NCBI GenBank assembly: GCA_003560175.1
Contig: PWIZ01000279.1
Span: forward strand, 1 to 14,230
Source of the DNA: Halomonas sp.
GTDB taxonomy: Bacteria; Pseudomonadota; Gammaproteobacteria; Pseudomonadales; Halomonadaceae
DNA length: 14,230 nucleotides
Reading direction: 5' to 3'
In this document: piece by piece, positions 606 to 5,401 of the stretch
Layout of the letters: the number at the start of each line of letters is the position of its first letter
Numbering within the stretch: the first letter of the stretch is position 1
The notes under the pieces: model-generated
What the model was told of the DNA's origin: nothing
Databases searched by the model: none
The model's input: the letters and a program-made list of their open reading frames with translations, nothing else
Translations under genes and position numbers: made by a program

Positions 606-2231
606 ATGACAGTGCATGATTCGGAAGCCTTGTCTGGCGGGGGGCGGTCGTCATCTGCCGGCTACCTGACCCGCCGTCACTTCATGCAGGCGCTGGGGGC
701 CGTCGGCGGGGCGGGCATGATGATGTCCGGCCTGTCGGCTTTCGGCATCGGCATCGCCTCTGCCCAGGATACGCCCCCCGCCCTGAGCGGCGAGGGCAAT
801 GGCAAGAGTGTCGTCATTCTGGGGGCTGGTCTTGCCGGCCTCGTCGCAGCCTATGAACTGGGCAAGAAGGGGTATCGTTGTCAGGTTCTCGAAGCGCGTG
901 GCTATGCCGGGGGCCGGGTTCAGACGGCACGTGCCGGATTCGTGTTGCCTCAGCTGGGACAGCAAGATGAGGTGTGCGACTTCGATGAAGGCGAGTACTT
1001 CAATCACGGGCCCTGGCGCATTCCCTACCATCATCGTTCCACGCTGCACTACACCCGAGAGTTCGGCATTCCTCTGGAGATCTTCGTCAACCACAACGAG
1101 GCGGCGTTCGCCTACCGTGACGCGGCGGGGCCCCTGAGTGGCAAGGCGGTTCGACAGAAGGAGATCATTGCCGACATGCGCGGGCATGCGGCAGAGATCC
1201 TGGCCAAGCATGTCGACCAAGATGCCCTGGATGTACCGCTGACCCAGGAGGAGCGCGAGAAGTTTCTCGAGTTTCTGGTGGGCGAAGGGCATCTGGAGCG
1301 CAGCAGCCTGGACTATCTCGGGACGGGGGGGCGAGGCTACCTTCAGGAGCCCGGCGCAGGGCTGACTCCCGGCGAGGCTTCCACGCCCCATAGCCTCTCG
1401 GCGCTCCTGCAGTCGGATCTGTACGGCATCGTCAGCTCGGTCAGCGGCTTTACCCAGCAGAAGACCATGTTCCAGCCCATTGGCGGGATGGACAAGATTC
1501 CCCAGGCCTTCGAAAAGGCACTGGGAGGTGCCGTCACCTACGGTGCCCAGGTCACTCGCCTGCAGCAGAGCGAGGAGCGGGTTTTGGTCGATTATCGCAA
1601 CCGGACGACCGGTGAGAGCCACCAGGTGGAGGCCGACTACTGCCTCTGCACCATCCCGCTGTCGGTACTTCGGGGCATCGAGAATGATTTCTCGGCCGAG
1701 TTTCAGGGGGCCATGGAAGCCGTGAGTTACACCCCGACCTGCAAGCTGGCGCTGCAGATGAAGAGACGCTTCTGGGAAGTCGAAGACCATGTCTTTGGCG
1801 GCCACTCCTTCACCCATAACAGCGGGACTGGGAACATCAGCTACCCCTCGACCGGATGGCAGGGGCAGAAAGGCGTACTGCAGGGCGTCTACAACTTCGG
1901 CTCCAATGCCGCCCAGTTCAGTGCCCTCGACAAGGCGCAGCGTATCGAGAAGGCCCTGAGCGTGGGCGAGAAGATCCATGCCGGCTATCGCCGGGATTTC
2001 GATACCGCCTTCAGTACGGCCTGGCACCTGGTGCCGGAAAACCTGGGGGGGTGGGCCAGCTGGTCCAGCGAGGCACGCGAGACGAGTTATCCGTTGCTCA
2101 ATGAACCCCAGGGACGGGTGCTGCTGGCTGGTGAGCACCTCAGCTATATGACGGGGTGGATGGCAGGCGCCATCGAATCCTCCTGGCTGCAGATCGAGAA
2201 GCTCCATGAGTTGGCGATGGAGGCCGCATGA
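606..2231 (+). CDS. Tat-exported flavin amine/amino-acid oxidase (541 aa)
   Basis: FAD-dependent oxidase or dehydrogenase of the flavin monoamine oxidase / L-amino-acid oxidase family; it would oxidise an amine or amino acid to the imine. The N-terminus carries a twin-arginine signal, TRRHFMQ at residues 22-28, then a hydrophobic stretch and a possible cleavage site after ASA (51-53). The dinucleotide-binding motif is GAGLAG (73-78) with Glu97 and GGR (102-104). Lys380 lies in the conserved segment before RFW, and the C-terminal FAD motif is AGEH (508-511) followed by TGWMAGA. I chose the ATG at 606 because GGAGAG lies six bases upstream and the signal peptide then has normal length; the same frame is open from 513. 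It overlaps the cytochrome c start by four bases. The substrate is not evident. Pairing with a cytochrome suggests it does not rely on oxygen, as known for nicotine oxidoreductase NicA2. Confidence 0.88.
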   Translation: MTVHDSEALSGGGRSSSAGYLTRRHFMQALGAVGGAGMMMSGLSAFGIGIASAQDTPPALSGEGNGKSVVILGAGLAGLVAAYELGKKGYRCQVLEARGYAGGRVQTARAGFVLPQLGQQDEVCDFDEGEYFNHGPWRIPYHHRSTLHYTREFGIPLEIFVNHNEAAFAYRDAAGPLSGKAVRQKEIIADMRGHAAEILAKHVDQDALDVPLTQEEREKFLEFLVGEGHLERSSLDYLGTGGRGYLQEPGAGLTPGEASTPHSLSALLQSDLYGIVSSVSGFTQQKTMFQPIGGMDKIPQAFEKALGGAVTYGAQVTRLQQSEERVLVDYRNRTTGESHQVEADYCLCTIPLSVLRGIENDFSAEFQGAMEAVSYTPTCKLALQMKRRFWEVEDHVFGGHSFTHNSGTGNISYPSTGWQGQKGVLQGVYNFGSNAAQFSALDKAQRIEKALSVGEKIHAGYRRDFDTAFSTAWHLVPENLGGWASWSSEARETSYPLLNEPQGRVLLAGEHLSYMTGWMAGAIESSWLQIEKLHELAMEAA

Positions 2232-2644
2232 TCCGGCAATACCTTCGCCGCTCGGGAGCGCGGCCCCTTGCCTCGACGCTTCTGCTGACCGGACTGCTGA
2301 CATCGGGATTTGCCACCAGTGGTCAGGTCGGTGTCGTCGGGGAGACCGGCTATCAGCAGAACTGTTCGGCCTGCCATATGGCCAACGGCGAGGGGATTCC
2401 CGGCGCCTTTCCCCCACTGGCCGAAAGCGGCTTCGTCGCGGGAGATACTAGAGAAGTTCTGAGAGTCATCGCCTACGGCCGCGCCGGTATGCCGGCCTTT
2501 GGCAGTGAGCTTTCTCAAGAGCTATTGGCCGATATCGTCATCTATATCCGCGAGCACTTTAATGCGATTCCCACCCACCTGACGGCTGAGGATGTCCAAG
2601 CCGTCAAGGTGTCATCAACTGCCAGAATGGCAAGAGAGGATTGA
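2228..2644 (+). CDS. Exported one-haem c-type cytochrome (138 aa)
   Basis: Small class I cytochrome c. A signal or anchor segment (residues about 11-30, hydrophobic) precedes the haem-binding motif CSACH at 46-50; Met88 in GMPAF is the probable sixth ligand, and the mature domain is about 100 residues. The ATG overlaps the oxidase stop (ATGA at 2228-2231) and has GGAGG at 2219-2223, so the two are translationally coupled. Known precedent: the flavin amine oxidase NicA2 donates electrons to a dedicated cytochrome c (CycN). By analogy this protein is inferred to accept electrons from the upstream flavoenzyme in the periplasm and pass them to a terminal oxidase. The 25-residue tail after the domain is polar and unremarkable. 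Confidence 0.88.
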   Translation: MIRQYLRRSGARPLASTLLLTGLLTSGFATSGQVGVVGETGYQQNCSACHMANGEGIPGAFPPLAESGFVAGDTREVLRVIAYGRAGMPAFGSELSQELLADIVIYIREHFNAIPTHLTAEDVQAVKVSSTARMARED

Positions 2645-2646
2645 TC

Positions 2647-3120
2647 ATGAAACTTCGTCAGATTGCAGGCACCGCTTTCATGCTGACCGCACTGAGCGGT
2701 ATGGCCCACGCCAGCAGTATCGAGCGTCATGCGATTCCCGACTCGGATTTCCCCATCCTGCAGGCGGTGACCCTGGAGAACGTCGAGCTGACCTACTTCA
2801 GCGGTACCGTGCCGCGGGCCGGCGAGGACGGTGAGTTCGGTGATACCGAGTCGCAGACCATTTCCGTGCTGGAGCGCATCAAGGCCGCTATGGAGCGCCG
2901 AGGGCTGGATCTCGGCGACGTGGTCAAGATGACGGTCTTCCTGGTGCCAACCGAGGAGACAGGCCGCATCGACTTTTCCGGCTTCATGGATGGCTACACT
3001 CAGTACTTCGGCACCGACGAGCAGCCCAATCTGCCGACTCGCTCGGTAGTGGGGGTCGCCGACCTGGCCAATCCCGAATGGCTGGTCGAGATCGAGGTGG
3101 TGGCTGCCCGCACGCCCTGA
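2647..3120 (+). CDS. RidA/YjgF-family imine deaminase with Sec signal peptide (157 aa)
   Basis: RidA (Rid/YjgF/UK114) family protein; such proteins hydrolyse enamine/imine intermediates to keto acid and ammonia as trimers with active sites between subunits. The Arg that binds the substrate carboxylate is present as Arg132 in LPTRSVV (equivalent to Arg105 of E. coli RidA), and Glu148 in VEIEVVA matches the conserved Glu near the C-terminus. Residues 1-22 form a typical Sec signal peptide ending AHA, which is unusual because RidA proteins are normally cytosolic. I chose the ATG at 2647 because GAGAGGA lies six bases upstream and the protein then starts MKLRQ; a TTG at 2641 is possible. The gene starts two bases after the cytochrome stop. 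Location and context imply it clears the imine made by the oxidase in the periplasm. Confidence 0.88.
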   Translation: MKLRQIAGTAFMLTALSGMAHASSIERHAIPDSDFPILQAVTLENVELTYFSGTVPRAGEDGEFGDTESQTISVLERIKAAMERRGLDLGDVVKMTVFLVPTEETGRIDFSGFMDGYTQYFGTDEQPNLPTRSVVGVADLANPEWLVEIEVVAARTP

Positions 3121-3275: not shown

Positions 3276-3722
3276 TCAGCCGAGGCTGATCACGCCCAGC
3301 AGCACGGCAGCGGCCAACGCCCAGAGATAGAACGAGAAGACCTTCATGCGGGCGCGGTAGAGGAAGTAGAGCACCATGCGCAGGGCCAGGGTGCCGACGG
3401 CGGCAGCGACCACGAAAGCGGTCACCATCACCCCGTAGTCGAGCTCGCCGAGACCGCCGTTCCGGGCGACTTCTATGCCTTGTACGGTGGTGGCGGCGAA
3501 AATGGTGGGAATCGCCAGAAAGAAGCTGTACTCGGCGGCCCAGCGTCGTTTCAGCCCGCCCAGCAGGGCGGCGGAGATGGTCAGGCCGCTGCGACTGAAG
3601 CCCGGCAACAGTGCGCCGTTGATCCTAGGGAAGTAGACATCCGTGATCATCAGGATCTTCAGGGTATTGTCGCCCGCCCAAGCGCAGGACAGCGGGCGCT
3701 GCAGGAGCGCAGCGGAGTGCAT
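3276..3722 (-). pseudogene. uppP: Chimeric remnant: start of a glycosyltransferase joined to the C-terminal half of UppP
   Basis: The open frame has 148 codons. From about codon 37 (3614 leftwards) it reads [20 protein letters not shown] and FFLAIPTI, followed by two further membrane segments. This is the C-terminal part of undecaprenyl-diphosphate phosphatase (UppP/BacA), including the PGxSRSG active-site motif; a full protein has about 265-270 residues. Codons 22-36 (3615-3659) instead read [15 protein letters not shown], the typical N-terminus of a family 4 glycosyltransferase, with the expected initiator Met replaced by a CTG-encoded Leu. The join falls exactly after the glycosyltransferase ING motif and is in frame. 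The catalytic Glu-rich N-terminal half of UppP is absent, so phosphatase activity is unlikely. I read it as a deletion that fused two former genes. Codons 1-21 have no recognisable homology. Confidence 0.72.
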
Positions 3723-4281: not shown

Positions 4282-4420
4282 GCTATCCGCATTTCGCGCA
4301 TTGATCTCCTCCCCTCCCTTCACGCTAGCGCGACTCAGGAAGGGGATTCCCTGACGGGTGCCAGTCCGATCGCTCGGGTAGCCAGTTCCTGCTGCTGACG
4401 GCCTTACTGCACCGTTCACT
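4281..4420 (-). ncRNA. Candidate omegaRNA (reRNA) at the tnpB 3' end
   Basis: In TnpB systems a guide RNA is transcribed from the tnpB 3' end through the right end of the element, and its guide is the flanking sequence just outside. Here the right end is predicted at 4301, the region 4301-4416 after the tnpB stop contains the hairpin at 4311-4345, and the guide would be the complement of 4281-4300 (starting TGCGCGAAATG on the - strand). The guide would abut the SpoIIAA-like terminator. The 5' boundary is unknown and probably lies inside tnpB. This is inferred from the family plan; no expression evidence is available. Confidence 0.35.
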
Positions 4421-5401
4421 TCACAGGCGCAACGGGCAGGTCCTGCCCTGACAAGCTCTCGTGGGCTCTGGCCAACACATTGCGGGCACCGACAACGTCA
4501 GCGTGCGCCGTATGACCGCAGGCCTGGCAACGGAAGAGAGCCCGAGTCGGCCGATTGGCCGCCTCGATATGCCCGCACCCGGGGCACGTCTGACTGGTGT
4601 GCCGGGCTGGCACGGCGATCAGTAACCCACCTCGCCAGTCCTGCTTATAGGTGAGCTGGCGCCGGAACTCGAACCAGCCCTGGTCGAGGATCGCCTTGTT
4701 CAGCCCCGCCTTCTGCTTCACCCGCTTGCTTGGTGCCGCCAGGGTGCCCTTGGCGGAGGCCGACATATTGCGCACCCGAAGATCCTCGACGGCCACCATG
4801 GCGTGGTTCTGGCTGATAGCGGTCGAAAGCTTGTGGAGGGTGTCACGTCGTGTATTGGCGGCTTTCTGGTGCAAGCGGGCAATACGGGCTTTCTGTTTCT
4901 TCCAGTTCTGGGAGAACCGGACCTTGTGCTCGAGTCGGCGCTGCGCCGTGGCGATACGCTGTTCCAGCTGCCGGAAGCTGTTGCGTCCGGTGTGGGCGGT
5001 GCCGTTGGAGTCCACGGCGAAATGCGCCACGCCCATGTCCAGGCCCACCGCTGAGGTGGCGGGATGCCGAGGCGACTCTGCTAACTCAATCTCGACCTGG
5101 AAGCTGACGTGCCAGCGGCCGCCATCGAGACCCACGGTGCAGTTGGTGATCTTTCCCACCACCGGTCGTGACTGGCGAAAGCGGACCCACCCCAGACCAG
5201 CGGGCAGCTTCACGCGGCGATGATCCAGCCGGCCATGGTGCCATATCGCGGCACACGCTCCCCGCGCTCCCATGCGGCGAGGCATTCGGCCAGTGCGTGA
5301 TTCCAGACGAAGCGCGCATGACCGGCACGCACCCGGAGCCGCGCCTCTTGCGAAGGCGTCGGGTCAAGCCGGTACTTCAAGCCAAACTGTCGCTTCATCA
5401 A
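4416..5401 (-). pseudogene. tnpB: TnpB RNA-guided nuclease, broken by an internal deletion and frameshift
   Basis: Two pieces in different frames belong to one TnpB. The N-terminal piece (5401 down to about 5230) reads MKRQFGLKYRL, then HARFVWNHAL and TMAGWI. The C-terminal piece (about 5230 to 4416) starts LDHRRVKLPAG and carries all three RuvC acidic residues: Asp in GLDMGV, Glu in VEDLRV, Asp in HADVVGARN. It also has the zinc ribbon CPGCGH...CQACGH. By comparison with the family (about 370-410 aa), roughly 70-80 residues are missing between GW and LDHRR, where the junction reads GGCTGGATCATCGCC and the frame shifts. The N-terminal frame stops five codons later. The ATG at 5398 or 5401 has GAGGA upstream. 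The catalytic half is intact and could be translated only from an internal start. Confidence 0.8.

Follow-up and report, generated by a model that had tools for sequence, protein, structure and literature searches.

We analysed a putative three-gene amino acid oxidation operon in the window, the whole 14,230-nucleotide stretch of Halomonas sp. contig PWIZ01000279.1. The three genes lie on the same strand in a tight operon (606-3120), in which the reading frames of the oxidase and the cytochrome share 4 bases (ATGA) and a 2-base gap separates the cytochrome stop from the Rid gene. The features are as follows.

594-600, + strand: Shine-Dalgarno-like GGAGAGA 5' of the oxidase start, recognised by eye
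606-2231, + strand: flavoenzyme gene, 541 amino acids; PF01593 (Amino_oxidase), E 2.2e-49
2228-2644, + strand: cytochrome c gene, 138 amino acids; heme motif CSACH; PF13442 (Cytochrome_CBB3), E 1.7e-13
2647-3120, + strand: Rid gene, 157 amino acids; PF01042 (Ribonuc_L-PSP), E 2.6e-20

Open reading frames (ORFs), Pfam matches and motifs confirmed an earlier, sequence-only reading of this DNA, which had described abutting genes for a flavoenzyme with a twin-arginine translocation (Tat) signal, a CxxCH cytochrome c and a Rid protein with a signal peptide. Note that the oxidase frame opens at 513, upstream of 606, in the program-made ORF list. The genome from which the window comes is 72% complete and divided into 439 contigs, and the closest named oxidases were those of Halomonas.

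Identity of the flavoenzyme, the cytochrome and the Rid protein

Among solved proteins, the L-amino acid oxidase of Rhodococcus opacus (RoLAAO; 2jae, 2jb1; 37% identity) came nearest to the flavoenzyme in both sequence and fold. R138 and Y429 of the window's oxidase align with Arg84 and Tyr371 of RoLAAO, which we take, in numbering and in roles, to be its carboxylate-binding pair. RoLAAO thus shares the fold and the Arg/Tyr pair with the window's enzyme and is named an oxidase; it is not known to have a Tat signal or a cytochrome partner. For comparison, 109 related loci were assembled, consisting of 80 from named species (the best 80 of at least 361 confirmed stretches, a set that leans to close relatives) and 29 from an even phylum draw of 397 genomes with a requested completeness of ≥90% (the 29 loci come from 28 other genomes, and 3 further matches are not among them). 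The position of R138 was arginine in 109/109 of these oxidases, and that of Y429 was tyrosine in 105/109. By sequence, the window's enzyme belongs to the L-amino acid oxidase branch of the flavoprotein amine oxidoreductases. The sequence-only reading had compared it with NicA2, which is indeed of the same superfamily, but RoLAAO is the closer relative by sequence and fold; NicA2 was rejected as its nearest kin, as 5ttj, presumably NicA2, matches residues 25-110 only (E 3.8e-7). An amine substrate in place of an L-alpha-amino acid, by analogy with NicA2, Pnao and the monoamine oxidases, therefore seems improbable: several members are automatically named 'flavin monoamine oxidase family protein' and the superfamily is shared, but the closeness to L-amino acid oxidases and the conserved carboxylate-binding positions argue against it. 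A Tat-type motif, LTRRHFMQALG, occupies residues 21-31 of the oxidase (by motif only).

The cytochrome has one heme motif, CSACH, and a probable Met ligand within GRAGMPAF (by eye), and is probably an exported monoheme cytochrome c that would serve as the electron acceptor of the oxidase. A cytochrome c was detected in this slot at 54/109 related loci by profile scan, and additionally at L031 and L021 by motif. In 47/54 of these cytochromes, a strongly hydrophobic stretch falls within the 50 residues N-terminal to the heme motif, and the leader of the remaining 7 may lie further upstream. At L031, L034 and L035, the slot between oxidase and Rid is taken by a CxxCH protein with two hemes instead of one.

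The N-terminus of the window's Rid protein, MKLRQIAGTAFMLTALSGMAHA, is a Sec-type signal peptide as judged by eye. Rid3 proteins are defined by retention of the catalytic Arg and Glu and by Ile where RidA has Tyr (PMC4433059; this and the other papers are cited from the parts of their text available to us), and the window's Rid carries these marks as R132, the catalytic E148/E150 and I37. Among the operon-linked Rids, the Arg and the Glu were each found in 64/64 and the Ile in 63/64, with Met in the other 1. The best solved matches were PSPTO3006 (9bka) and PFL1385 (9bkc). PFL_1385 and PSPTO_3006 were reported as Rid3 imine deaminases, both of which lowered the trapping of the imines of L-Leu, Gln, Phe, Met and His in vitro (PMC5619798). 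In that work they were tagged recombinant proteins, supplied with imines by a snake oxidase and DauA, and the words "signal" and "periplasm" are absent from the available part of the paper; in alignment with the window's Rid, PFL_1385 has a signal-like N-terminus (by eye). What the sequence-only reading called an exported RidA is therefore a Rid-family protein with a signal peptide, but Rid3-like rather than RidA proper by its residues and its nearest solved proteins. Its sequence identifies it as a predicted exported Rid3-type imine deaminase.

Gene order and export signals among related loci

Relatives of the oxidase and of the Rid are numerous, with 4027 oxidases at E 1e-60 among 7994 scored candidates (those sharing most words) and 3641 Rids at E 1e-15. 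Gene order at the 109 loci was scored by stop codons on one strand, with the cytochrome within ≤1 kb and the Rid within ≤2.2 kb, and gave the following counts.

Named species, 80 loci: oxidase-cytochrome-Rid 21; oxidase-cytochrome 12; Rid-oxidase-cytochrome 1; oxidase-Rid 20; oxidase alone 26
Phylum draw, 29 loci: oxidase-cytochrome-Rid 15; oxidase-cytochrome 5; oxidase-Rid 6; Rid-oxidase 1; oxidase alone 2

The three-gene order was thus found on one strand at 36/109 loci, which speaks against a chance arrangement. It is not universal: at the remaining 73, the cytochrome or the Rid (or each of them) is missing, or the genes are ordered otherwise. One of the 36 is Caulobacter vibrioides OR37 (L055; 53% identity). 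Three loci hold more than the tally could see: at L021, the Rid-oxidase locus, the oxidase has a CxxCH protein upstream; the two-heme protein of L031, which was scored as oxidase-Rid, lies in between; and at L103, scored as oxidase-cytochrome, a Rid precedes a second oxidase upstream. Separately, the trio is annotated on a plasmid of Sulfitobacter indolifex, and a Mesorhizobium plasmid has the oxidase and the cytochrome, with no Rid seen 3' of them.

The oxidase was present in 29/397 genomes of the phylum draw, the window's own included. Within the genus it was present in 6/90 genomes, 5 of which, again including the window's own, have the full trio, so that the trio is an accessory operon there. 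The sixth genome (G471) has a distant oxidase and a cytochrome, with no Rid detected by motif in 1.5 kb.

Export of the Rid was assessed by a home-made rule, under which the Rid core must be preceded by a positive residue, an uncharged hydrophobic stretch and either a cleavage site or a lipobox. As controls, we used the 30 best-scoring PF01042 matches from 19 genomes including the window's own, which are mostly RidA proper. The rule was passed by 62/64 operon-linked Rids vs 0/30 of these paralogues; by arrangement, 36/36 Rids passed in oxidase-cytochrome-Rid loci, 24/26 in oxidase-Rid loci and 2/2 in the others. The two that failed, at L032 and L033, begin with MSDSIQR without a leader, and the adjoining oxidases have charged residues after the twin arginine, so that their Tat region looks broken as judged from sequence. 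A lipobox-like site was flagged in the Rid leaders of L016, L017, L023, L024, L041 and L109, some of which may be lipoproteins. Cysteine was found in the mature part of 1/62 exported Rids vs 18/30 paralogues, although its absence may mark the subfamily rather than export, because the Rids of L032 and L033 also lack it.

On the oxidase side, the Tat motif rule, used without a shuffled control, matched 100/109 related oxidases. Two of the misses, L053 and L031, were left unanchored by the script and have a double arginine by eye; the others were L023 and L024 (TRRYAL), L056 and L058 (KR), L105 (RK), and L032 and L033.

A quick maximum-likelihood tree of 110 oxidases and RoLAAO, for which the program warned of long branches, required 3 changes for the presence of the cytochrome (L021 and L031 counted as having one) vs 16 for the oxidase-cytochrome-Rid label, indicating that the cytochrome is the steadier partner and that the Rid has been gained or lost more freely. 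Loci without a cytochrome include a 43-row group of 17 Bacillota and otherwise Bacteroidota, with one Gemmatimonadota and one Balneolota. Also without one are a Verrucomicrobiota locus and, in Pseudomonadota, two Woeseiaceae as well as L026-L030, L032 and L033 of the phylum draw.

A proposed periplasmic pathway and its alternatives

A lao-cccA-ridA cluster was described in 2016 in Gluconacetobacter diazotrophicus PAL5, where it was tied to the conversion of tryptophan to auxin, as two Tn5 lao mutants made no auxin from tryptophan (PMC5053998). In that report, the oxidase has a Tat signal, the same cluster organisation is noted in Caulobacter crescentus and Xanthomonas, and it is proposed that electrons go to the cytochrome c and the imine is hydrolysed by RidA, both cooperating with the oxidase. 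The three gene kinds and the Tat oxidase are like those of the window, a likeness drawn from the published description; in the available part, a signal peptide is mentioned for the oxidase only, whereas the window's Rid has one too. A 2025 study reported that many flavin amine oxidoreductases use the cytochrome c whose gene adjoins their own; the rate constants in clades 2 and 3 ranged from 1e4 to 1e6 per molar per second, and adjacency was found to predict cytochrome use better than the Tat signal does (PMC12224317). The enzymes of that study, NicA2, Pnao and their relatives, share with the window's the Tat signal, the adjacent cytochrome c gene and the superfamily; RidA is unmentioned in its available part. 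From these two studies together, the window's operon belongs to an already described kind. The sequence-only reading, which had proposed much the same pathway as not a standard described system, therefore keeps its outline and loses its claim to newness, the trio having been published with the same cooperation. What stands is that no publication on an exported bacterial Rid was found in the literature searched, which says little of journals beyond it. Two features had no paper there, namely the Rid's conserved export and the Bacillota form linked to TatA, which is described below.

Among papers judged by title and the start of the abstract, only PMC5053998 and PMC10805672 dealt with the trio. 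The latter places Chlamydomonas LAO1 and LAO2/RidA in the periplasm and cites the lao-cccA-ridA cluster. LAO1, an extracellular L-amino acid oxidase that has a putative RidA and converts tryptophan to indole-pyruvate, is like the window's pair, but it is eukaryotic and makes hydrogen peroxide, and its gene cluster, as named in the available text, has no cytochrome. One cluster, for chitin oxidation, includes a RidA-family protein that is essential (PMC9537276); this cluster was set aside, as neither a flavin oxidase nor a cytochrome is named in the part available.

From the gene order, export signals, catalytic residues, fold and wide co-occurrence seen in these sequences, we infer, with a probability of roughly 65%, that the operon serves to oxidise L-amino acids in the periplasm, with the cytochrome c as acceptor and the exported Rid3 clearing the imine. 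The flavoenzyme would fold with flavin adenine dinucleotide in the cytoplasm, be exported by Tat, and turn one or more L-alpha-amino acids (tryptophan being the precedent) into the 2-imino acid. The reduced flavin would then be reoxidised by the co-encoded cytochrome c in two one-electron transfers, and not by oxygen, and the cytochrome would pass the electrons to the respiratory chain. Outside the cytoplasm, the exported Rid3 would hydrolyse the imino acid, yielding ammonium and the 2-oxo acid; this would stop the imine from reacting elsewhere and may keep the reaction from reversing. Since electron transfer from enzyme to cytochrome was judged likely not irreversible (PMC12224317), imine removal could pull the reaction forward, although the Bacillota form, which has the Rid and no cytochrome seen, speaks against pulling as the sole reason for the Rid. 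If the cytochrome is the acceptor, the cytochrome-using flavin amine dehydrogenases would extend to the L-amino acid branch, and with it to extracellular keto acids and auxin precursors. Moreover, a Rid that is seemingly exported with an imine-making enzyme (62/64) would offer a clean, purifiable system for testing the purpose of Rid.

Several points weigh against this periplasmic dehydrogenase pathway. K380, the near-flavin lysine that is linked to the oxygen reaction in true oxidases, was kept in 109/109 related enzymes, but nearly all dehydrogenases are reported to have it too (PMC12224317). Adjacency of a cytochrome gene is also an imperfect predictor: in clade 1, the three enzymes that have such a cytochrome were slow towards it, at 290 to 2700 per molar per second, the clade 2 enzyme of B. 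anthina reacted only ~sixfold faster with the cytochrome than with oxygen, and the survey that reported these values began from NicA2 and may not take in the L-amino acid oxidase branch (PMC12224317). No published kinetics or localisation was found, in the literature searched, for a member of that branch with its own cytochrome. In addition, our signal-peptide rule was home-made, with controls drawn from other Rid subfamilies, and a Rid was not found at 17/109 loci having both oxidase and cytochrome.

The lysine and the slow clade 1 enzymes would suit a true oxidase that makes periplasmic hydrogen peroxide, for defence or for nitrogen scavenging as with Chlamydomonas LAO1, while the cytochrome serves another step. 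Most Bacillota and Bacteroidota relatives moreover have no CxxCH frame nearby, and Tat enzymes without a nearby cytochrome reacted rapidly with oxygen in the survey (PMC12224317). We nevertheless consider a peroxide-making enzyme rather unlikely in the window, because the oxidase and cytochrome genes overlap there and the cytochrome is the steadier partner in Pseudomonadota. We likewise give little credence to the possibility that the Rid is exported for another job, such as a chaperone-like one, instead of deaminating the imines that the oxidase makes. The 17 loci without a detected Rid would fit it, as would the unaided hydrolysis of imines in water, reported for an amine oxidase product (PMC4433059), but the invariant catalytic Arg and Glu of the operon Rids and the activity of Rid3 members on the imines of five L-amino acids in vitro (PMC5619798) favour imine deamination.

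The Bacillota form and the surroundings of the operon

In the Bacillota loci, all from the named set, tatA directly follows the Rid gene of an oxidase-Rid pair in 17/17 cases (L057, L059-L070, L072, L080, L082 and L083), and tatC was present in 13/17, either downstream on the same strand (4) or upstream on the opposite strand (9). No CxxCH frame was seen nearby on the same strand in 16/17; the exception, L059, has one 2.9 kb upstream that is not cytochrome-like. The order oxidase, Rid, tatA, tatC is also annotated on a Metabacillus plasmid (L154, 5501-7084). With tatA after the pair in all Bacillota loci, export of the oxidase-Rid pair seems to be built into the gene cluster. A wider reading, which we consider less likely than not, is that secreted flavoenzymes that oxidise L-amino acids have an exported Rid as their standing catalytic partner in several phyla. 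The Rid would act with a cytochrome c in Pseudomonadota, where imine removal would drive an otherwise reversible dehydrogenation, and in Bacillota the pair, without a cytochrome, would form a self-contained secretion unit with its own TatA and often TatC. If this is true, imine hydrolysis outside the cytoplasm would be a general step in bacterial extracellular amino acid use. Rid proteins are usually viewed as intracellular guards against reactive imines.

A substrate hint was sought by Pfam in 88 neighbouring ORFs (≤2 per side) of 22 named trio loci, and none was found. TonB receptor domains were the commonest neighbours among the families listed (25 of 64), with Plug in 11/88 and the barrel in 10/88. 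Perhaps the TonB-dependent receptors beside the trio serve substrate uptake; no substrate was named from them, because these domains come partly from sister species. In NCBIfam, no model scored above cut-off among the 25 of 42 matches listed for the oxidase, or among all matches for the cytochrome and the Rid. A promoter and terminator scan was uninformative, giving 0 promoters and 3 terminator-like sites vs 1.9 expected.

Next to the operon, an ORF on the - strand (3276-3722) joins a glycosyltransferase-like N-terminus, recognised by eye, to the C-terminal part of BacA (PF02673, 159-256 of 257), and represents either two fused genes or an assembly error in the contig. An OrfB/TnpB of IS605 type (4416-5285, - strand; PF01385, Cas12f1-like TNB) lies 1.3 kb off the operon; the operon's oxidase has a patchy distribution within the genus (6/90 genomes).
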